From Thiobacillus denitrificans (lineage in GTDB: Bacteria; Pseudomonadota; Gammaproteobacteria; Burkholderiales; Thiobacillaceae), in the NCBI RefSeq assembly GCF_001530125.1, contig NZ_LDUG01000016.1:1-64000 (forward strand): a stretch of DNA of 64,000 nucleotides. The letters are read 5' to 3'. This document shows, in pieces, positions 282-10,150 of this stretch (position 1 is its first letter; every line of letters starts with the position of its first letter). Under the pieces are notes generated by a model. That model was not told the DNA's origin. It worked only from the letters and a program-made list of their open reading frames with translations, and ran no database searches. The translations under genes and the position numbers were made by a program.

Positions 282-1268
282 TCAGAATTCCGTCTTGATA
301 TCCCGGTTCAACAGGGCATCGACCGCCTCGGCGGCGGGCAGGCCTTCAAACAGCATCTGGCAGACTTTGCGGGTGATCGGCATATCGACGTCGAGCTCGC
401 TGGCGAGGGCGGCGACTTCGGGCGCGGTGGAAACGCCTTCGGCGACGTGGCCGAGTTCGGCCAGGATGGTGTCGAGCGTCTGGCCGCGCGCCAGTCGCAG
501 GCCGACCTGGCGGTTGCGCGAGAGATCGCCGGTGGTGGTGAGAATGAGGTCGCCGAGGCCGGACAATCCCATGAAGGTTTCGAAGTGTCCGCCGAGTTCG
601 ACGCCGAGGCGGGTCATTTCGGCCAGCCCTCTTGTGATGAGCGCGGCGCGGGCGTTGTGGCCGAGCTTAAGGCCGTCGCAGATGCCGGCGGCAATGGCCA
701 TGACGTTCTTCAGCGCGCCGCCGAGCTCGACGCCGATCACGTCGTCGTGCGCGTAAATGCGCAGGCGCTGGACGGATAGCGCCTCGGCGAGGCGCTGCGC
801 CAGTCCGCTGTCGTGCGAGGCGAGGGTGAGTGCGGTGGGATAGCCCTGCGCGACTTCCTGGGCAAAGCTGGGGCCGGACAGCACGCCGGTTTGGGTGTGC
901 TCGGGCAGCAGTTCGGCAATGAGTTGATGCGGCAGTTTGCGGCTGCCATGCTCGAAGCCCTTGCACACCCAGATCAGCGGCGGCAGGTGGGGGCGGGCGG
1001 CCAGCGCAGCCAGGGTGGGGCGCAGGCCGCTGCTGGGAACGGCGATGACGATGAGGTCGGCCGAGTCGACAACGGCGTTGAAATCCGGGTTGAACTGCAG
1101 GGCGTCGGGCAGCAGGCAGTCGGGCAGGTAGCGGGTGTTGACGCGGCTCGCGCGCATGGCGTCGAGTTCGACCGCGTTGCGCCCCCACAGGGTGACCGCA
1201 TGGTGGGGCGCCCAGCTGGCGGCCAGTGCGGTGCCCCAGGCGCCGGCGCCGAGTACAGCTAATCTCAT
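282..1268 (-). CDS. gpsA: Glycerol-3-phosphate dehydrogenase [NAD(P)+]
   Basis: This cytoplasmic enzyme reduces dihydroxyacetone phosphate to sn-glycerol 3-phosphate, the backbone of phospholipids. The 328-residue protein opens with the Rossmann motif GAGAWGTALA (residues 7-16) and carries the family segments around WVCKGFE, GALKNVMAIAAG (catalytic Lys-Asn) and GLSGLGDLILT. Length is normal for bacterial GpsA. It is the last gene of the minus-strand block and its start overlaps the stop of the SH3-protein gene by 4 bases, so the two are probably translationally coupled. The secB-gpsA linkage is the same as in E. coli and many Proteobacteria. Confidence 0.97.
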   Translation of the reverse strand: MRLAVLGAGAWGTALAASWAPHHAVTLWGRNAVELDAMRASRVNTRYLPDCLLPDALQFNPDFNAVVDSADLIVIAVPSSGLRPTLAALAARPHLPPLIWVCKGFEHGSRKLPHQLIAELLPEHTQTGVLSGPSFAQEVAQGYPTALTLASHDSGLAQRLAEALSVQRLRIYAHDDVIGVELGGALKNVMAIAAGICDGLKLGHNARAALITRGLAEMTRLGVELGGHFETFMGLSGLGDLILTTTGDLSRNRQVGLRLARGQTLDTILAELGHVAEGVSTAPEVAALASELDVDMPITRKVCQMLFEGLPAAEAVDALLNRDIKTEF

Positions 1269-1737: not shown

Positions 1738-2196
1738 TCAATGCGTTTGCTCGGGTGCGGCCGGTTGCTGCTGCGCCTGCTGTTGTTGCAGGAACAGCGC
1801 TTCGAAGTTGACCGGGTTCAGCAACAGCGGCGGGAAGCCGGCGCGGATCACCACGTCGGACACCGCCTCGCGCAGATACGGGAAAACAATGTTGGGACAG
1901 CCGATGCCGAGCACCATTGGAATCTGATCCTGTGGCACGTTCTGGATGCGGAAGACGCCAGCCTGGGTGCATTCGACCAGGAACATGGTCTTGTCGCCGA
2001 TTTTGGCGGTGACGGTGACGGTGATGCTGGTGTGGTACATGTCATCGCCGAGCGCGCGGCTTTCGGTCGACATGTTGACGTCGATCTGCGGCGCCTCGCG
2101 TTCCAGGTAAATGGCGGGGGCGTTAGGCACTTCCAGCGACAGATCCTTGACGTAGAGTTTTTCGATATTGAATACGGGTTGTTGCGCGTCGGTCAT
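1738..2196 (-). CDS. secB: Protein-export chaperone SecB
   Basis: SecB holds preproteins unfolded and passes them to SecA. The 152-residue sequence shows the typical core: an N-terminal strand with FNIEKLYVKDLSLEVPNAP, the DMYHTSITVTVTAKIGDKTMFLVE region, and the C-terminal GFPPLLLNPVNFEALF segment followed by a Gln/Ala-rich tail. It lies between trxC and the SH3-protein gene on the minus strand, in the conserved grxC-secB-gpsA order. Confidence 0.97.
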   Translation of the reverse strand: MTDAQQPVFNIEKLYVKDLSLEVPNAPAIYLEREAPQIDVNMSTESRALGDDMYHTSITVTVTAKIGDKTMFLVECTQAGVFRIQNVPQDQIPMVLGIGCPNIVFPYLREAVSDVVIRAGFPPLLLNPVNFEALFLQQQQAQQQPAAPEQTH

Positions 2197-2261: not shown

Positions 2262-2690
2262 TTATTGAATCCCTTGTGACGCCAGCCAGCGTTTCAGCGC
2301 ATGGGCTTCCATCGCGCCCGAGCTGCGTGCCGCTTCAGCGCCGTTTTTGAACAGAATCAGGCTGGGAATGCCCTTGATGTGGTGGCGCATCGACACCTGC
2401 GGATGTGCTTCGGTGTCGACCTTGGCAAAACGCACGCGCGTGCCCATTTCGGCGGCCACCTGCTGGAAAATCGGCGCCATCATCTTGCAGGGGCCGCACC
2501 AGTCGGCCCAGAAATCGATCAGCACCGGCAGGCCGGCCTTGGCAATAAAGCGATCGAAGCTGTCCGCGGTGAGATCAACCGGTTTGCCGGGCAGCAGCGG
2601 CATGCCGCATTGGCCACATTTGGGCGCTTCGGCCAGGCGGTCGTCCGGCACGCGGTTGATGGCGAGGCAGTGGGGGCAGGCGAGTTCCAT
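2262..2690 (-). CDS. trxC: Thioredoxin 2 (zinc-binding thioredoxin)
   Basis: A 142-residue cytoplasmic thiol-disulfide reductase. The N-terminal extension has two CxxC pairs (CPHC near residue 5 and CGQC near residue 26), the zinc knuckle that separates TrxC from TrxA. The thioredoxin fold follows, with active site WCGPC and cis-Pro segment GIPSLILF. TrxC is usually linked to oxidative stress in other bacteria. Its place between grxC and secB is an addition to the E. coli gene order. Confidence 0.95.
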   Translation of the reverse strand: MELACPHCLAINRVPDDRLAEAPKCGQCGMPLLPGKPVDLTADSFDRFIAKAGLPVLIDFWADWCGPCKMMAPIFQQVAAEMGTRVRFAKVDTEAHPQVSMRHHIKGIPSLILFKNGAEAARSSGAMEAHALKRWLASQGIQ

Positions 2691-2746
2691 TTGGCTTCCT
2701 TGAGGCGAATGATCCTCGAGTCAAGGTGGAGGCGTATGCCGGAAAA

Positions 2747-3010
2747 TCAAGCGCGGGCGAGCAGCGGCACCAGTTCGCCTGCGGCATCCAGTGCTGAGGT
2801 GTCGTCGAAACCGCCGACGTGGGCGTCGCCGATGAACACCTGCGGCACGCTGCGGCGCCCACCGGAGCGTGCGATCATTTCGTCCTGCTTCGCCGGGTCG
2901 AGGTCGATGCGGATTTTTTCGATTTCGGTCACGCCGCGGCTTTTGAGCAGGCGCTCGGCAGCGACGCAATAGGGGCATACGGCGGTGCAATACATTACAA
3001 CTTTGGCCAT
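2747..3010 (-). CDS. grxC: Glutaredoxin 3
   Basis: An 87-residue monothiol/dithiol oxidoreductase that uses glutathione to reduce protein disulfides. The active site CPYC is near residue 16, followed by the family signatures RSVPQVFIG (cis-Pro) and GGFDD. It starts 11 bases after the rhodanese stop and is clearly in its operon. The order rhodanese-grxC-secB-gpsA matches E. coli yibN-grxC-secB-gpsA. Confidence 0.96.
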   Translation of the reverse strand: MAKVVMYCTAVCPYCVAAERLLKSRGVTEIEKIRIDLDPAKQDEMIARSGGRRSVPQVFIGDAHVGGFDDTSALDAAGELVPLLARA

Positions 3011-3020
3011 GAAAGCCTCC

Positions 3021-3437
3021 TTATTTCTGGGTGACGGGCAGGTTGGCGCGTTCCCACGCGATGATGCCGCCCGCCTGGTTGTAGACGGTCTCGAATCCGG
3101 CCTTTTTCAGCATGCCGCAGGCGCGCGCCGAGCGCTGGCCACTGCGGCAGGTGACCAGGATCGGCTTGGTCTTGAATTTTTCGAGCTCCTTGATGCGGCC
3201 GGCCAGTTGGCCAAGCGGAATGTGCTTCGCCTTGGGGATATGGCCGGCAGCAAACTCCTTGTCCTCGCGCACATCGAGCACCAGTGCGTCGTCGTTGTAC
3301 AGCCGGGTGGCTTTCAAGGTGTCGGCCTGCTCCACGCCGGAGAGTTTGCCGCCGATAAAAGACCAGGCCAGCATGGCGCCAGAAACCACCGCCAGCGCCA
3401 CCAGCATCCAGTTGTCCTGCAGGAATTGCATCTCCAT
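3021..3437 (-). CDS. Membrane-anchored rhodanese-like sulfurtransferase (YibN type)
   Basis: A 138-residue protein with one N-terminal transmembrane segment (about residues 10-30) and a single rhodanese domain. The domain carries the CH2A-like segment LVLDVREDKEF and the active-site loop LVTCRSGQRSA with the catalytic cysteine. Such proteins carry sulfane sulfur or persulfide. Its place beside grxC, secB and gpsA identifies it as the YibN counterpart. Directly upstream lies a DUF2892 membrane gene. In E. coli YgaP, a rhodanese and a DUF2892 hairpin are fused. Confidence 0.9.
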   Translation of the reverse strand: MEMQFLQDNWMLVALAVVSGAMLAWSFIGGKLSGVEQADTLKATRLYNDDALVLDVREDKEFAAGHIPKAKHIPLGQLAGRIKELEKFKTKPILVTCRSGQRSARACGMLKKAGFETVYNQAGGIIAWERANLPVTQK

Positions 3438-3449
3438 GAATGTTCTCGC

Positions 3450-3668
3450 TTACAGGCCGCAGCCCGGCTTGACGCCCGCTTTTTTCAGCATGATGTCCAT
3501 CGGGCAGAAACGGGTGAAGCCGGACTGGAACAGGTTGAAGCCGACGAAGGCGGCGAACCACAGCCAGGAGATCTGGGTCATGTCGACCGTGCCGGAAAAA
3601 TGCGCCAGCGCCAGCGACAGCATAATGAAGGAACCGGCAATGATGCGGACGAGGCGTTCAACGGTCAT
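3450..3668 (-). CDS. DUF2892 small inner-membrane protein
   Basis: A 72-residue protein with two predicted membrane helices. It contains the family hallmarks MTVERLVRIIAG at the start and FCPMDIMLKKAGVKPGCGL at the C-terminus, like the membrane part of YgaP. It starts 16 bases after the RND pump stop and ends 12 bases before the rhodanese start. The molecular function is not settled. The family often accompanies rhodaneses and sulfide-responsive ArsR regulators, which fits this neighbourhood. Confidence 0.85.
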   Translation of the reverse strand: MTVERLVRIIAGSFIMLSLALAHFSGTVDMTQISWLWFAAFVGFNLFQSGFTRFCPMDIMLKKAGVKPGCGL

Positions 3669-3684
3669 GGGTAAGACTCCTGTT

Positions 3685-6600
3685 TTATTGAGAAGAAAAT
3701 TTGCGGTAATTGGCCGCGTAATACAGCACCGGAATCACCACCAGCGTGAGCAGGGTGGAGACAAAAATGCCAAAAATCAAGGATACCGCGAGACCGGAGA
3801 AAATCGGGTCGTCGAGGATGAAGAAGGCCCCCATCATGGCGGCGGCGCCGGTCAGCACGATCGGCTTGGCGCGGGTGGCGCCGGCCTGGATGACCGCTTC
3901 CTGGAAGTCCATGCCCTCAGCGACCTGCTGGTTGATGAAGTCGACCAGCAGGATGGAGTTGCGCACGATGATGCCGGCCAGTGCGATCATGCCGATCATC
4001 GAGGTGGCGGTGAACTGGACGCCGAGCAGGGCGTGGCCCGGCATCACGCCGATGACGGTGAGCGGAATCGGCGCCATGATGATGAGCGGCGTGAGATAGC
4101 TCTTGAACTGCGCCACCACCAGGATGTAGATCAGCATCAGTCCGAAGGCGTAGGCCAGGCCCATGTCGCGGAAGGTCTCGTAGGTCACCTGCCATTCGCC
4201 GTCCCACTTCAGGCTGAAGCCGGCATAGGGGTCGGCGGGCTGACGGATGAAATATTCGGACAGCGTGCCGCCCTGTTCAAGCGCCATGTCCTTCAAGTCG
4301 CCGCGCATGCCGAACAGGCCGTACAGCGGCGAATCCAGCACGCCGCCGGTGTCGCCGAGCACGAACACCACGGGCAGCAGGTTCTTGTGATAGATGGTCT
4401 TTTCGCGCTCGCTTGGCATCACTTCCACCAGTTCGGACAGCGGCACCAGATTGCCGTTGTTGCCGCGCACGGTGAGCTTTAGCAGTTCGCCGATTTCGCT
4501 CTGGCGCTCCGGCGGCAGGGTGATGCGCACCGGGATTTCGTACTTGGCGCCGCTGCCGTGGATGGGGGTGACGTTTTCACCCGCCAGCCCCATCTTCATC
4601 GCCGCGACGATATCCTTTTGTGCCACCCCCGCCAGAGCCGCCTTGTTCTGCAGCACGCGCAGCACGAAGCGCTGGGCATCGTCCTCCACGGTGTCGTCGA
4701 TGGCGACAATGCCATCGGTCTTCTCGAACACCGCACGCACCTGCTTGGCGACCTGCATCTGCGCGTCGTAGTCGGGGCCGTAGATTTCGGCAACGATGGG
4801 CGACATCACCGGCGGCCCGGGCGGTACTTCAACCACCTTGACGTCGGCGCCGTGCTTCTTCGCGATGGCTTCGACGGCAGGGCGGATCGCCTGCGCGATG
4901 TCGTGGCTCTTGCGGTCGCGCTCGCTCTTGTCGACCAGATTCACCTGCAGGTCGCCGACCTCGGGGCCGGCGCGCAGGTAATACTGTCGCACCAGGCCGT
5001 TGAAGTTGATCGGCGCCGCGGTGCCGGCATAGGCCTGATAGTCGGTGACCTCGGGAGCAGCGGCGACGGCCGCCCCCATCTCGCTCAATACCTGGGCGGT
5101 CTTTTCCAGCGGCGTGCCGACCGGCAGGTCGACGATGATCTGGAATTCCGACTTGTTGTCGAACGGCAGCATTTTCAGGATGACCAGCTGCACCACCGGC
5201 AGCGCGACCGAAATGAGGATGGCCAGGCCAATCCCCAGCCACAGCATGCGGCGCGCGCCGCGTCCCTCGGTGCCGCGCAGGAAGGGCGCGAGGCGCTTGC
5301 GGAACAGGGTGGTGAGCTTGTTGTCGCCTGCTTCGTGGGCGCCGTGCGGTGCCTGCTTGATGAGCCTGAGGGCCAGCCAGGGCGTGATGATGAAGGCGAT
5401 CGCCAGCGAAATCAGCATGCCGATTGAGGCGTTGATCGGGATCGGGCTCATGTACGGCCCCATCAGGCCGGAGACGAAGGCCATCGGCAAGAGCGCGGCG
5501 ATCACGGTGAAGGTGGCGAGGATGGTCGGGCCGCCTACCTCGTCGACCGCGCGCGGAATGATGGCCTCGAGGCCATCATGGTCAAGCCCCATGCGGCGGT
5601 GAATGTTTTCCACCACCACGATGGCGTCGTCAACCAGGATGCCGATCGAGAAAATGAGCGCGAACAGCGACACCCGGTTAAGCGTGAAGCCCCACGCCCA
5701 CGAGGCAAACAGCGTGGCCGCCAGCGTCAGCAGCACTGCCGCGCCGACGATCAGCGCCTCGCGGCGGCCAATGGCGAACAGCACCAGCAGCACCACCGAG
5801 CCGGTGGCGAAAATCAATTTCTGGATCAGCTTCTTTGCCTTGTCGTCGGCGGTGGCGCCGTAGTTGCGGGTGACGCTGACCTCGACCCCCTCGGGCAGGA
5901 TGCTGCCATGCAGCGAGTTCACTCGTTCGATCACCTTTTCGGCAACGTCGACCGCGTTTTCGCCTGCTTTTTTGGAGATGGCCAGTGTCACCGCCGGGAA
6001 GGTCTGGCCCTGGTCGGCCTGGTGCGGGCTGCCCGCGCCCGGGGCGTGCCAAACGTAACGCGTCGGCTGGTCGGGGCCGGAAACGACGCTGGTCACATCC
6101 GTCATGTAGACCGGGCGACCCTGCGTAACGCCGACCACCAGTTGTTTGACGTCGTCGGCGCCGGTGAGAAAGGTACCGGTCTGCACCAGGATTTCCTGGT
6201 TGCCCGACACCAGCGTGCCGGACGGCTGCGCCGCGTTGGATACCTGCAGCGCGTCGCGGATGTCCTGCGCCGACACATTGAATGCCGCCATGCGGTCGGG
6301 GTCCATCAGCACCCGCACCGCGCGGCCGGGACCGCCGAGGGTGGTGACTTCGCGCGTGCCGGCGATGCGTTTCAGCTCGATTTCCGCAGCGTGCGCCACC
6401 TGCTCCAGCTCGTAGGCACCGCGCGTCTCGTCGCGCGTCCACAGGGTAACGGTGACGATCGGCACGTCGTCGATGCCGAGCGGCTTGATGATAGGTTCGC
6501 CGACGCCGAGCTCGGGCGACACCCAGTCGCGGTTGGCCTGGATGGTGTCGTACAGTCGCACCAGCGCCTGGGTGCGGTCCTGCCCCACCAGGTATTGCAC

Positions 6601-6885
6601 GGTCAGCACCGCCATGCCCGGCTTGGAGACGGAGTAGATGTGCTCGATGCCGGCGATCTGCGACAGCACCTGTTCGGCCGGGGTGGCGACCAGCGCTTCC
6701 ACGTCCCGCGCCGAGGCGCCGGGGAAGGGGATGAACACGTTGGCCATGGTCACGTTGATCTGCGGTTCTTCCTCGCGCGGCGTGACCAGAATGGCGAACA
6801 GGCCCAGCAGCGCCGCGATCAGTGCGATCAGCGGGGTCAGCTGGGACGTGAGGAAGAAGCGGGCGGTGCGTCCGGAGAGTCCCAT
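3685..6885 (-). CDS. RND-family efflux pump, inner-membrane permease (AcrB/MdtB-like)
   Basis: A 1066-residue proton-driven transporter, full length for the hydrophobe/amphiphile efflux subgroup. The architecture is TM1, a large periplasmic loop, TM2-6, and a repeat of the same plan. Visible marks include the N-terminal 'TPREEEPQI' region, the TM4 acidic pair in 'SIGILVDDAIVVVENIHRR', which relays protons, and a closing TM12 'TLLTLVVIPVLYY'. It forms an operon with the adaptor upstream (12-base gap) and the DUF2892/rhodanese genes downstream. No outer-membrane channel gene lies nearby, so a shared TolC-like channel is likely. The substrate is unknown. Confidence 0.93.
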   Translation of the reverse strand: MGLSGRTARFFLTSQLTPLIALIAALLGLFAILVTPREEEPQINVTMANVFIPFPGASARDVEALVATPAEQVLSQIAGIEHIYSVSKPGMAVLTVQYLVGQDRTQALVRLYDTIQANRDWVSPELGVGEPIIKPLGIDDVPIVTVTLWTRDETRGAYELEQVAHAAEIELKRIAGTREVTTLGGPGRAVRVLMDPDRMAAFNVSAQDIRDALQVSNAAQPSGTLVSGNQEILVQTGTFLTGADDVKQLVVGVTQGRPVYMTDVTSVVSGPDQPTRYVWHAPGAGSPHQADQGQTFPAVTLAISKKAGENAVDVAEKVIERVNSLHGSILPEGVEVSVTRNYGATADDKAKKLIQKLIFATGSVVLLVLFAIGRREALIVGAAVLLTLAATLFASWAWGFTLNRVSLFALIFSIGILVDDAIVVVENIHRRMGLDHDGLEAIIPRAVDEVGGPTILATFTVIAALLPMAFVSGLMGPYMSPIPINASIGMLISLAIAFIITPWLALRLIKQAPHGAHEAGDNKLTTLFRKRLAPFLRGTEGRGARRMLWLGIGLAILISVALPVVQLVILKMLPFDNKSEFQIIVDLPVGTPLEKTAQVLSEMGAAVAAAPEVTDYQAYAGTAAPINFNGLVRQYYLRAGPEVGDLQVNLVDKSERDRKSHDIAQAIRPAVEAIAKKHGADVKVVEVPPGPPVMSPIVAEIYGPDYDAQMQVAKQVRAVFEKTDGIVAIDDTVEDDAQRFVLRVLQNKAALAGVAQKDIVAAMKMGLAGENVTPIHGSGAKYEIPVRITLPPERQSEIGELLKLTVRGNNGNLVPLSELVEVMPSEREKTIYHKNLLPVVFVLGDTGGVLDSPLYGLFGMRGDLKDMALEQGGTLSEYFIRQPADPYAGFSLKWDGEWQVTYETFRDMGLAYAFGLMLIYILVVAQFKSYLTPLIIMAPIPLTVIGVMPGHALLGVQFTATSMIGMIALAGIIVRNSILLVDFINQQVAEGMDFQEAVIQAGATRAKPIVLTGAAAMMGAFFILDDPIFSGLAVSLIFGIFVSTLLTLVVIPVLYYAANYRKFSSQ

Positions 6886-6897
6886 GCGCGTCTCCGT

Positions 6898-7938
6898 TTA
6901 TTTCGCGGGCTGGTTGGCGGTGCTTTTGGCGTAAATCCCCGCCTTGACCGGATCGAGTGCAATGACATCGCCCGGATTCAGGCCGGCCAACACCTCCACC
7001 TGGCCGCGTCCGTTCGGCGTGCCCAGGCGGATCTGCCGCAGGTTCACCCTGTCATCCTTGACCACGTACACCGCGGAGAGCTCGGTGCGATGCACCACCG
7101 CGGTCGACGGGATGGTGAGCTTGCGCGCGCTGCCCACCGAGAAATGCGCGCGGGCGAACATGCCGGGGATGACGCCTTCCAGGCTGGCCGGCAGATCGAT
7201 CCTCACCTTGACCGTATGGGTGGCCGCATCCGCCGACGGCAGCACGGTGACGCCGGTGGCGTCGATCCACTTGTTGAGCGAGGGTATCTCGACTGCAACG
7301 CGCGGTGATGCCTTGATTTCCGCCAGCTTGTACTGCGGGATGTCGGCAATCACCCGCATGTCTTTGGGGTCGAATCCGGTCATCAGTGGGGTGCCGGGCG
7401 CGACCGTTTCGCCCACTTCCACGTGGCGGGCGGCGACCACCCCCGAATACGGCGCGGTGATCACGGTGTAGCTGCTCACCGCTGCGGTCTGTCCAACGCC
7501 AGCGCGTGCCGCGCGTGCTGCCGCCTCGGCGGCGCGGAACTCGGCGGTGGCGCGGTCGAGTGCGGCCTGGCTGATGAATTTCTGCTGAAACAGCTGCTGC
7601 TGGCGCTGGTAGTTGGCGCGGGCATTGGCCAGCGCGGCATCGGCCTGCGCCACCTGCGCCTGGCTGCCCGCCACGGCGGCCGACAGTTCCTGTGCGGAAA
7701 GCCGAACGATGACCGAACCGGCCTTGACGTAATCGCCGGCGTCAAAATTGACCGCCGACACGCGTCCGGCCACCTGCGCCGCGATGGTGGATTGCTTGAC
7801 GGCCTCGACCGTGGCTTCCGTGGAGTGGCCGGTGTCGACCATCTGGTACGTCACCGGCGCAACCGCAAAGGGCAGGGCTGCCCAGGCGGACGGGGAAGCA
7901 AGAATGAGGCAGGCCAGCAAACGGGTGGGGTTCAGCAC
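6898..7938 (-). CDS. RND efflux periplasmic adaptor (membrane-fusion protein)
   Basis: A 346-residue periplasmic subunit that bridges the RND permease and an outer-membrane channel. A signal peptide occupies residues 1-20 (cleavage after AWA). It is followed by a lipoyl/biotinyl half-motif ('STIAAQVAGRVSAVNFDAGDYVKAG'), an alpha-helical hairpin rich in Ala and Gln (about 85-150), the second lipoyl half ('VITAPYSGVVAARHVEVGETV') and a beta-barrel domain. It is the first gene of the pump operon, with its own promoter and candidate operator just upstream. Confidence 0.92.
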   Translation of the reverse strand: MLNPTRLLACLILASPSAWAALPFAVAPVTYQMVDTGHSTEATVEAVKQSTIAAQVAGRVSAVNFDAGDYVKAGSVIVRLSAQELSAAVAGSQAQVAQADAALANARANYQRQQQLFQQKFISQAALDRATAEFRAAEAAARAARAGVGQTAAVSSYTVITAPYSGVVAARHVEVGETVAPGTPLMTGFDPKDMRVIADIPQYKLAEIKASPRVAVEIPSLNKWIDATGVTVLPSADAATHTVKVRIDLPASLEGVIPGMFARAHFSVGSARKLTIPSTAVVHRTELSAVYVVKDDRVNLRQIRLGTPNGRGQVEVLAGLNPGDVIALDPVKAGIYAKSTANQPAK

Positions 7939-7962
7939 AGGAGCTCCTCCAGGAAAGCATCC

Positions 7963-7994
7963 ATTAGACTATTCTAATTTATGATTTTAATCAA
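7963..7994 (-). promoter_or_regulatory. Pump-operon promoter with overlapping ArsR-type operator
   Basis: ATTAGA (7963-7968) and TCTAAT (7973-7978) form a perfect 6-4-6 inverted repeat. Read on the minus strand, TTGATT (7989-7994) and TAGTCT (7966-7971) are 17 bases apart and make a passable sigma70 promoter, so the palindrome covers the -10. A half site ATTAGA recurs at 8544-8549 upstream of the arsR gene. This is the arrangement expected for repression by the neighbouring ArsR protein. The assignment is inferred, not demonstrated. Confidence 0.5.
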
Positions 7995-8062
7995 GCGCTT
8001 GGGTGGTGATTCTGAGGCGAATTGCACCGGCGTTGCTGCTTCAAGTATGCACCATAAACAAA

Positions 8063-8091
8063 GGCCCGGCACGCTTGCGCGTAGCCGGGCC
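8063..8091 (-). terminator. Terminator of the arsR gene
   Basis: GGCCCGGC (8063-8070) pairs with GCCGGGCC (8084-8091). On the minus strand the hairpin is followed by TTTGTTTA. It lies just after the arsR stop and separates that transcript from the pump operon. Confidence 0.6.
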
Positions 8092-8111
8092 GGGCGCTGC
8101 CAATGGAACGC

Positions 8112-8435
8112 TTACTTGCTGAAGCCGCAGAACACGTCGCGCATCATGCTCAGCAGTTTGAGCGTGCGGGTGTCGCCGACGCGGTAGAACACGCGGTTGG
8201 CGACCTTGCGGGTGCGCAGCACGCCCTTGTCGCGCAGGATGGCGAGGTGCTGCGAAATGTTGCTCTGCGAGGTGCCGACGTGGTCGACGATTTCCTGCAC
8301 GCTGATTTCCTTGTCGCCCAGCACGCAGAGAATTTTCAGGCGCAGCGGATGCGACATGGCCTTCATCGCACGCGAGGCCTGCTCAATGTGCTCATCCTTG
8401 TCCATGAGATCCACTTCGCCCCAGTCAGTTGCCAT
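8112..8435 (-). CDS. ArsR-family repressor, persulfide-sensor type (SqrR/BigR/YgaV-like)
   Basis: A 107-residue winged-helix repressor. The start at 8435 is preferred because GAGG lies 8 bases upstream of it; an in-frame ATG at 8441 is only 2 bases from that site. The recognition helix is 'TSQSNISQHLAILRDKGVL'. There is no ELCVCDL metal site. Instead single cysteines occur at residues 37 ('KILCVL') and 103 ('DVFCGF'). The 66-residue spacing equals that of Cys41/Cys107 in SqrR, which form a polysulfide bridge. The gene precedes the RND/DUF2892/rhodanese operon and probably controls it. The sensing role is inferred from the cysteine spacing and the neighbours. Confidence 0.85.
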   Translation of the reverse strand: MATDWGEVDLMDKDEHIEQASRAMKAMSHPLRLKILCVLGDKEISVQEIVDHVGTSQSNISQHLAILRDKGVLRTRKVANRVFYRVGDTRTLKLLSMMRDVFCGFSK

Positions 8436-8608
8436 ATTCATAACCTCGGTCCTGTTCGTGAAGTACCTTCATGCAGTCAGCTTCCGGGTGGAAGCATCAT
8501 CCGCGCGAGGCATTTTTCGGGCAATATTGCACGTTGCGTATAGATTAGAAATCACGCATATATTAAAATGATTCCACAAAAACGAGTCAGGTTATATAAA
8601 TATTTTTC

Positions 8609-10150
8609 ATGAAGACCTTGCCGGTTCTCCTCATCATCCTTGACGGTTTTGGTTGCCGTGCGGAACGCGCCGACAATGCAATCGCCCAGGCCAGCAAGCC
8701 CAACTGGGATCGGTTGTGGAAACACCATCCGCACACGCTCATCCACGCATCGGAATCCGAAGTGGGCCTGCCCAAGGGGCAAATGGGCAACTCCGAGGTG
8801 GGGCACTTGAATATCGGCGCGGGGCGGGTGGTGTACCAGGAATTCACCCGCATCGACCGGGCCATCGAGTCCGGCTATTTCTTCACCAATCCGGCCCTGC
8901 TGAATGCCGTGCATCTGGCGCGCGACAACGGCAAGACCCTGCACGTGCTGGGTCTGCTGTCGGATGGCGGAGTGCATAGCCACGAATTGCACTTCCACGC
9001 CCTGCTTGATCTAGCGGTGCGCGAGGGCCTCAACAAGGTGTGTCTGCACGTGTTTCTGGATGGCCGCGACACACCGCCGAAAAGTGCCGAGGTCTATTTG
9101 CGGCGCCTCAACGAAAAAATCGAACAGACCGGCATCGGCCATGTCGCGTCGATGATCGGCCGCTACTACGCGATGGACCGTGACCGCCGCTGGCAGCGGG
9201 TCAAATCTGCCTACGACCTGCTGACCCAGGGGCGCGCCGAATACATGGCAGACAACCCGCAGGCCGGGCTGGAGGCTGCCTACGCGCGCGGCGAGACCGA
9301 CGAATTCGTCAAGGCCACGGCTATCCGTCCGCCGGACGGCAAGCCGGTGAAAATGGAAGACGGTGATTCGGTGATCTTCCTCAACTTCCGCTCCGACCGT
9401 GCGCGCCAGTTGTCGCGGCCGTTCATCGAGCGCGATTTCGGGGAATTCGAACGTGAAGTCACGCCGCGCCTGGCCACCTACTGCACGCTGACTGGCTACA
9501 GCGATGACTTTGCCGTTTCAGTGGCATTTCCGCCCGAGCGCATCAAGAACGGCATCGGCGAATACATCGCCAAACTTGGCTTGCGCCAACTGCGCATCGC
9601 CGAAACCGAGAAATATCCGCACGTCACCTTCTTTTTCAACGGTGGCGAAGAAGTCTCTTTTCCCGGTGAAGACCGCGTGCTGGTGCCGTCGCCCGACGTC
9701 GCAACCTACGACCTGAAACCCGAAATGAGTGCCTTCGAGGTGACCGAAAAATTGATCACTGCGATTAACAGCAAGCAATACGACGTCATCATCTGCAATT
9801 ACGCCAACCCGGATATGGTCGGGCACACCGGCGACCTGCAGGCGGCCATCAAGGCGATCGAAACGGTGGACACCTGCCTCGGCCGGGTGGTGGAAGCCCA
9901 ACTGGCGCGCGGCGGCGAAGTGCTGGTGACCGCCGACCACGGCAACGCCGAATTGATGCGCGACACCGCAACCGGTCAGGCGCATACCGCGCACACCCTG
10001 AACCTGGTCCCGTTGATCTACGTGGGACAGCGCTCGGCCACGCTGGCGGAAACCGGTGCACTCGAAGACATCAGCCCGACCCTGCTGAAAATGATGGGCT
10101 TGTCGCCCCCTCCCGAAATGACCGGTGAAGCCCTCGTGCAATTTGAGTAA
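8609..10150 (+). CDS. gpmI: 2,3-bisphosphoglycerate-independent phosphoglycerate mutase
   Basis: A 513-residue, manganese-dependent cytoplasmic enzyme that interconverts 3- and 2-phosphoglycerate in glycolysis and gluconeogenesis. The N-terminal alkaline-phosphatase-like metal site LDGFG (11-15) and the phosphoserine nucleophile Ser62 in GNSEVGHLN are present, as are HVFLDGRDTPP and the C-terminal metal motif TADHGNAE. Length is normal. It is transcribed away from arsR and followed closely by envC, as in E. coli gpmM-envC. Confidence 0.97.
   Translation: MKTLPVLLIILDGFGCRAERADNAIAQASKPNWDRLWKHHPHTLIHASESEVGLPKGQMGNSEVGHLNIGAGRVVYQEFTRIDRAIESGYFFTNPALLNAVHLARDNGKTLHVLGLLSDGGVHSHELHFHALLDLAVREGLNKVCLHVFLDGRDTPPKSAEVYLRRLNEKIEQTGIGHVASMIGRYYAMDRDRRWQRVKSAYDLLTQGRAEYMADNPQAGLEAAYARGETDEFVKATAIRPPDGKPVKMEDGDSVIFLNFRSDRARQLSRPFIERDFGEFEREVTPRLATYCTLTGYSDDFAVSVAFPPERIKNGIGEYIAKLGLRQLRIAETEKYPHVTFFFNGGEEVSFPGEDRVLVPSPDVATYDLKPEMSAFEVTEKLITAINSKQYDVIICNYANPDMVGHTGDLQAAIKAIETVDTCLGRVVEAQLARGGEVLVTADHGNAELMRDTATGQAHTAHTLNLVPLIYVGQRSATLAETGALEDISPTLLKMMGLSPPPEMTGEALVQFE

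Follow-up and report, generated by a model that had tools for sequence, protein, structure and literature searches.

In a 64,000-nucleotide stretch of Thiobacillus denitrificans DNA (contig NZ_LDUG01000016.1, positions 1 to 64,000; assembly GCF_001530125.1), hereafter the window, a gene for a two-cysteine repressor of the ArsR family lies upstream of the genes for a resistance-nodulation-division (RND) efflux pump. We propose that this ArsR responds to sulfane sulfur and would repress a compact regulon, the pump included, through the palindrome ATTAG-N6-CTAAT. The probability of this reading is estimated at about 0.72. The evidence that carries it comes from comparative genomics, in which the palindrome at the pump was followed across genomes with and without the ArsR. 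The parts of the locus concerned are as follows.

8112..8441, minus strand: arsR, gene for a two-cysteine ArsR repressor (109 aa; Cys39, Cys105), by Pfam/NCBIfam, PDB relatives and homologue alignment
7963..7978: palindrome ATTAGAATAGTCTAAT (minus strand), proposed operator, 24 bp 5' of the start of the adaptor gene
6898..7938, minus strand: gene for the periplasmic adaptor (membrane fusion protein, MFP) of the RND pump, GTG start, by Pfam/NCBIfam
3685..6885, minus strand: gene for the RND permease, similar to the hydrophobe/amphiphile efflux (HAE) class, by Pfam/NCBIfam; below every NCBIfam cut-off

Occurrence of the palindrome and of the ArsR across genomes

An unsupervised expectation-maximization (EM) search of the regions upstream of MFP genes returned the motif ATTAGNATATNCTAAT with a score of 316.6 versus 23.7 for shuffled sequence; the input was 42 non-redundant regions out of 52, and the control was a single shuffled set given fewer starting seeds. 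The motif reaches 19 bits or more in 36 of the 52 upstream rows, an in-sample count. The 16 rows without it are those of the congener G010 (twice), L067, L111 and L093, nine loci with a second type of pump whose first gene encodes an outer-membrane factor (OMF), and two loci from other orders. The 16-bp palindrome ATTAG-N6-CTAAT has one exact match in the window, where 0.008 would be expected from base composition. A second, AT-rich EM motif found 5' of arsR was set aside as possibly reflecting promoter composition.

Matches to the ArsR occur in 153 of 399 genomes of the window's order, Burkholderiales, at E ≤ 1e-25 and in 183 of 369 genomes of a class sample at E ≤ 1e-22, and genomes without a match at these thresholds are counted as ArsR-free. 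For scoring, the motif was trained solely with junction loci from the window's order and applied to the 350 bp upstream of pumps from other orders, with mononucleotide shuffles as the control. Of the 101 class-sample genomes with a match to the pump, 80 were fetched and 79 scored, L204 being too short. In these other orders, 32 of 67 ArsR-bearing genomes have a motif of at least 18 bits at the pump, against 0 of 12 ArsR-free ones (Fisher 0.001); at 14 bits or more the counts are 37 of 67 and 1 of 12. For pumps of the window's own order that are remote from the junction, the motif reaches 18 bits in 8 of 11 genomes with the ArsR versus 0 of 9 without, these genomes having been chosen by us among the more identical of 37 and about 60 candidates, respectively. 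Pooled, the motif is present at the pump in 40 of 78 genomes with the ArsR versus 0 of 21 without (Fisher 3e-6, uncorrected for kinship). Since the genomes are related, the Fisher values overstate independence; the nine ArsR-free genomes of the own order are mostly confined to a single region of the pump tree, and the other genomes occupy several. These comparisons support the control of the pump by this ArsR, which the original prediction, made from the letters of the window, had expected.

The pump may also have found other partners. At pump loci of other orders, a gene for a DUF2892 protein stands beside the pump in 7 of 10 ArsR-free genomes versus 0 of 30 genomes with the ArsR. Five of those ten ArsR-free genomes have a different ArsR near the pump, and in four of the five it carries both cysteines. 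The own-order loci L044 and L093 bring the other ArsRs near such pumps to seven, of which six carry the cysteine pair; that of L143 is without it. We regard this apparent re-pairing as a sign that the pump, and not just its place, is tied to two-cysteine repressors.

Several observations weigh against these readings. Re-pairing with other ArsRs recurs without being general, as the nine own-order ArsR-free genomes indicate: their fetched 7-kb stretches (about 4 kb upstream) held no other ArsR, and DUF2892 lies by the pump in just one of the nine. These genomes also count against the broader reading of a conserved regulon that is given below. Of the 78 ArsR-bearing genomes whose pump is remote or from another order, 38 score less than 18 bits at the pump, and the ArsR-free genome G629 reaches 17.7 bits. 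In the congener G010, arsR adjoins the pump and no palindrome is present at the pump; the two should be uncoupled there. The pumps of L067 and L111 are likewise without a palindrome, as is the MFP gene of L136, yet in L136 an 18.9-bit match lies between arsR and the pump genes. When one mismatch or fewer is allowed in the window's own genome, a reversed control pattern gives 21 matches versus 13 for the palindrome, and only exact matches were therefore used for the regulon. As to the repressor itself, it scores 73.9 bits against the NCBIfam BigR equivalog NF040642, whose curated cut-off is 155, and it is therefore not BigR proper. Finally, no full palindrome lies upstream of the window's own arsR, so that its autoregulation is not indicated, and most of 20 arsR-rhodanese loci from other orders are without a site at 14 bits.

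The last two observations, the latter made at pump-free loci, would be consistent with a palindrome that belongs to another conserved transcription factor, with the ArsR regulating its own rhodanese operon only and the position of the pump being incidental. We consider this unlikely. The sites track the presence of this ArsR, as the pooled counts indicate. Three loci of family f33 (L060, L082 and L093) have a perfect palindrome 5' of an arsR, that of L093 preceding a second arsR copy which carries an in-frame stop. A site also precedes the DUF2892 gene in L107, which is pump-free.

The two-cysteine repressor

The protein encoded by arsR belongs to the ArsR winged-helix family by sequence (PF01022, 49.2 bits versus a cut-off of 22). 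Its closest solved relatives are BigR (66.5 bits), HlyU, YgaV and PDB 6o8k-o/13ct, which we take to be SqrR. Both cysteines align with the sensing pair in the BigR, HlyU and YgaV alignments, in agreement with the predicted likeness to SqrR and BigR. The predicted spacing of 66 residues was also found, between residues 39 and 105 of the 109-aa frame; the earlier numbering of Cys37 and Cys103 counts from the second ATG (8435). These results support the assignment of the window ArsR as a two-cysteine member of the BigR/HlyU/YgaV group. Its own genome has a single match to it at E ≤ 1e-15; the other HTH_5 matches there are, in our reading, an ArsR-rhodanese fusion, a MarR-like protein and a cysteine-tailed ArsR.

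The conservation of the pair was examined in 112 homologous ArsR sequences (loci L005-L114, some genomes being represented twice). Of these, 104 retain Cys39 and 111 retain Cys105. Both cysteines are present in 31 of 31 loci with a pump in the slot behind arsR, in 41 of 49 loci without a slot pump, and in all 22 homologues taken from other orders of the class. The eight sequences without Cys39 have neither a slot pump nor a rhodanese match beside arsR; one of the eight, that of L104, ends at an in-frame stop. Homologues in the same slot lacking the cysteines had been named in the original prediction as an outcome that would speak against it; Cys39 is indeed absent in 8 of the 112, yet 0 of the 31 pump-slot loci lack either residue. 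The ArsRs of L060, L074, L076, L081, L082, L085 and L095 are without Cys39 and have Cys105.

Many ArsR proteins are metal sensors. It is conceivable that this ArsR controls the pump via the palindrome but that its inducer is a metal, an organotin-like compound, haem or a general thiol oxidant, and the retention of Cys105 without Cys39 in seven homologues would fit such an inducer. So would E. coli ygaVP, which in passages of PMC9774250 is reported to be derepressed by tributyltin, with haem binding discussed. We nevertheless consider a non-sulfur inducer rather unlikely. According to passages of PMC12423496, characterised members with this cysteine pair sense reactive sulfur species. The linkage of the window ArsR is also to sulfur genes, with rhodanese and DUF2892 genes as neighbours and a palindrome at a rhodanese-dsrE2 gene pair elsewhere in the genome.

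Architecture of the locus

The remaining features of the locus are listed below.

8609..10150, plus strand: gpmI, divergent neighbour of arsR, by Pfam and NCBIfam
8063..8091, minus strand: hairpin 3' of arsR with a strong stem and a weak U tract, possible attenuator or terminator
3450..3668, minus strand: gene for a DUF2892/YgaP-like transmembrane protein (PF11127)
3021..3437, minus strand: gene for a rhodanese with an N-terminal hydrophobic stretch, in the yibN position, by Pfam and comparison with E. coli
2747..3010, minus strand: gene for glutaredoxin 3 (grxC, grx3), by NCBIfam
2262..2690, minus strand: gene for thioredoxin TrxC with an N-terminal zinc ribbon, by Pfam and NCBIfam
1738..2196, minus strand: secB, flanking, an old neighbour, by Pfam and NCBIfam
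282..1268, minus strand: gpsA, flanking, by Pfam and NCBIfam

All genes named in the original prediction were found in the predicted order, at or near their predicted positions, and the Pfam and NCBIfam assignments are concordant. On the minus strand the order is arsR, MFP, RND, DUF2892, rhodanese, grx3, trxC, secB, a gene that we call SH3-type, and gpsA. The gaps are 12 bp between MFP and RND, 16 bp between RND and DUF2892, 12 bp between DUF2892 and rhodanese and 10 bp between rhodanese and grx, followed by 56 bp between grx and trxC and 65 bp between trxC and secB. Because of these short gaps, the genes from MFP through grx, at the least, plausibly form one operon, and to judge from the gaps, glutaredoxin and thioredoxin may be co-regulated with the pump. 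The pump operon does not simply start with arsR: 173 bp including the strong hairpin separate this gene from MFP, which has its own palindrome-bearing upstream region. A terminator 3' of arsR is possible, the hairpin being strong; a terminator scanner made no call after arsR. At L049, the locus of G010, the gap between arsR and MFP is 464 bp and holds no palindrome.

The RND permease (1066 aa) is a full-length ACR_tran protein (PF00873, 499.1 bits), and its MFP partner matches RND_mfp at 209.6 bits versus a cut-off of 94.9. The best solved relatives of the permease score only about 210 bits. Since it also falls far below every NCBIfam cut-off listed, it looks like an uncharacterised HAE-like branch; GILVDDAIVVVEN, a motif of the HAE-like class, can be read in it. 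A Pfam scan of the locus found no outer-membrane channel gene among the operon genes, and a search for PDB relatives of the DUF2892 protein found none.

Age and content of the gpmI-rhodanese junction

The pump family is widespread: in the order, 138 of 399 genomes have a match at E ≤ 1e-280, and in the class sample 101 of 369 have one. In the order, ArsR and pump lie within 11 kb of each other in 41 of the 78 genomes where both were placed. The positions of arsR were listed for 148 of the 153 matching order genomes, and from these we selected 80 loci (L035-L114), mainly one per genus together with the loci of the window's own genus. In 74 of the 80, gpmI and/or envC lie divergent and upstream of arsR. 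The others are L043, L044, L059 (at a contig end), L073, L103 and L109, and the ArsR of L044 is only 39% identical. Downstream of arsR the order loci vary: the window-type pump, the second OMF-MFP-RND pump, the rhodanese gene directly, or other genes follow.

The 20 ArsR loci that were fetched from the class's other orders all have rhodanese and gpsA behind arsR; 19 of them also have secB and 4 have DUF2892, and none carries a window-type pump between arsR and rhodanese. Two of 40 other-order pump loci, fetched because of their pump, are near this arsR: in L135 the pump comes after gpsA, and in L136 it lies about 1.6 kb past arsR, with no rhodanese found. In E. coli K-12, gpmM-envC is divergent from yibN-grxC-secB-gpsA with no arsR between, the order on which the original prediction had relied. 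Because of the E. coli order and the pump-free loci of other orders, ArsR and rhodanese look like an old core and the pump like an added part. The proposal that ArsR and DUF2892 had been inserted together with the pump is not supported; joint insertion of the three was rejected in view of pump-free loci in the own and other orders. On the whole, the original prediction is partly confirmed: its observation was real, the inserted genes were misjudged, and sulfur-type ArsR control of the pump was rightly expected as far as the sequence tells.

We also explored the possibility of a recent horizontal gain of the pump and rejected it. In an RND tree of 85 rows, 41 own-order pumps, whether in the slot or remote, lie together with L044 on one side of a starred branch; the slot label needs 3 changes on this tree, at least 2 of them forced. 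The pump tree does not suggest a recent import.

The slot holds other cargo as well. The non-orthologous OMF-MFP-RND pump, whose OMF gene is our reading of the sequence, occupies it in L046, L048, L052, L055, L056, L061, L066, L079 and L113; its permease is 37-40% identical to the window type, and the swap is seen even within one genus (L046, L048, L052). In L050 and L054, a gene set that we read as CusA-like RND follows arsR on the opposite strand, and in L050 it is followed by what we read as copper nitrite reductase-like genes. A membrane gene of about 600 aa, O-antigen-ligase-like in our reading, lies just 5' of rhodanese in L038, L065, L066, L067, L075, L094, L105, L107 and L110.

Such cargo, the O-antigen-ligase-like gene and the CusA-like set with its copper nitrite reductase-like genes in particular, raises the possibility that insertions are simply tolerated in the slot and that the RND pump there serves for drugs in general and has no part in sulfur metabolism, which would be compatible with regulation by the ArsR. 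This appears unlikely in view of where the palindrome occurs. It accompanies the pump when the pump is elsewhere; in L050, for example, the pump is about 9 kb from arsR with other genes between, and the palindrome stays with the pump. Two non-orthologous pumps both carry it: for the second-type pump, 7 of 9 loci have a motif match close to the start of the OMF gene (mononucleotide shuffle p ≤ 0.01, scores 7.4-20.8), and of the remaining loci one has a match at shuffle p 0.06 and one has no match. The other two-cysteine ArsRs that adjoin the pump in some genomes likewise argue for a specific tie.

Further palindrome sites and the candidate regulon

The window's own genome contains six exact palindromes, where 0.4 would be expected from the base composition of the window. 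Four precede plausible targets, namely the pump, a rhodanese-dsrE2 pair, a DUF302 gene and an RF02278 RNA. The other two (C18 and C49) have GC-rich cores and were taken as chance occurrences. The three sites away from the pump are as follows.

G000:C30:71637-71652, with the next 110 bases or so: palindrome in the promoter region of an RF02278-type RNA, and the RNA itself (L179, L225)
G000:C9:117999-118014: palindrome about 17 bp 5' of a rhodanese gene that has a DsrE2-family gene behind it (L176); conserved in the genus
G000:C11:53506-53521: palindrome just 5' of a gene for a DUF302 protein (L177)

Six congeners contain 21 exact palindromes versus 1 match for the reversed pattern. Their targets, some of which were assigned by coordinates, are rhodanese in six cases, the RNA in five, MFP in three and the DUF302 gene in two, with five left over. 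The rhodanese-dsrE2 site reaches at least 14 bits in 27 of 30 fetched loci and 9.4 bits in the other three. The DUF302 protein has a signal-like N-terminus, and the same palindrome arrangement occurs in two congeners.

The RNA at G000:C30 scores 57.4 bits versus the RF02278 gathering score of 50 and bears CCUCC motifs. RF02278 RNA is present in 51 of 56 genomes of the genus, and all 30 fetched genus loci have the palindrome (20.6-29.7 bits). At these loci, as judged by eye, it lies shortly behind a TTGACA box, where the -10 box is expected. Beyond the genus, 30 loci were fetched and the RNA was placed by script in 25; a palindrome of at least 17 bits is present in 6 of 14 such loci with the ArsR in the genome versus 0 of 11 without it.

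Proposed mechanism and significance

We propose that a two-cysteine ArsR, anciently anchored between gpmI and the rhodanese gene, would repress the genes downstream. As sequence comparison supports, the reduced ArsR would occupy the palindrome in the promoter region of MFP-RND-DUF2892-rhodanese-grx(-trxC) and keep the operon off. A rise in cellular persulfide or polysulfide would lead to a sulfur bridge between Cys39 and Cys105, the bridging of two-cysteine ArsRs being family knowledge in passages of PMC12423496 and PMC10509353. The bridged ArsR would then leave the DNA, and the pump would be made along with thiol and sulfane-sulfur handling proteins. The identity of this ArsR as the palindrome binder, the sulfur chemistry and the derepression are what we infer from these comparisons. 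In the window's genus, the same ArsR may also control the rhodanese-dsrE2 genes, the DUF302 gene and the RF02278 RNA. The cargo of the pump could perhaps be low-molecular-weight persulfides, or it could span the general HAE substrate range.

A broader reading is tentative, and we hold it at slightly less than even odds. It would have a conserved regulon in Beta- and Gammaproteobacteria, in which the two-cysteine ArsR of the gpmI-rhodanese junction controls the RND pump in cis or in trans through ATTAG-N6-CTAAT and, in the genus, also rhodanese-DsrE2, DUF302 and the CCUCC-bearing RF02278 RNA. The pump would be a dedicated reactive-sulfur pump, re-paired in some lineages with other two-cysteine ArsRs when the original is missing.

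If these proposals are true, a widespread, uncharacterised RND pump family would gain a physiological signal and an exact, testable operator. The RF02278 small RNAs, whose function in B. cenocepacia is described as unknown in passages of PMC4603805, would gain a signal too, and reactive sulfur would alter the translation of other mRNAs via the RNA. Efflux pumps would also come under sulfane-sulfur control by way of an ArsR, alongside the MarR-family route. In the open-access literature we found no paper linking this palindrome, the pump family or RF02278 to such a repressor. The suggestion in the original prediction that a pump is an unusual target for such sensors is weakened by work in print: passages of PMC12423496 already list RND pumps among the genes near two-cysteine ArsR regulators, and passages of PMC11211675 describe responses of MexR, with mexAB-oprM, and of MarR to sulfane sulfur.

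Comparison with known systems

The repressors BigR, SqrR, SoxR, sHdrR, YgaV and HlyU share with the window protein the ArsR fold, two cysteines 66 residues apart and sulfur-gene neighbours. A. baumannii BigR controls a yeeE-yedE-pdo2 operon in the account given in passages of PMC7315123. Unlike the BigR/SqrR group, the window ArsR is anchored at gpmI-rhodanese-secB, is associated with the palindrome ATTAG-N6-CTAAT and falls below the NCBIfam BigR cut-off, and its proposed targets include an RND pump and the RF02278 RNA. RF02278 itself is the Betaproteobacteria toxic small RNA family; the RNA of the genus passes its gathering score, and the palindrome lies upstream in 30 of 30 genus loci and in 6 of 25 elsewhere. 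E. coli ygaVP, as described in passages of PMC9774250, is similar in that a two-cysteine ArsR is followed by a rhodanese with a YgaP-like transmembrane domain (PF11127), whereas in the window the transmembrane domain and the rhodanese are separate genes and the pump lies between the repressor and the transmembrane gene. The likeness to MexR/mexAB-oprM and MarR would be that of an efflux pump derepressed by sulfane sulfur (passages of PMC11211675); those regulators belong to the MarR family, whereas the window repressor is an ArsR.

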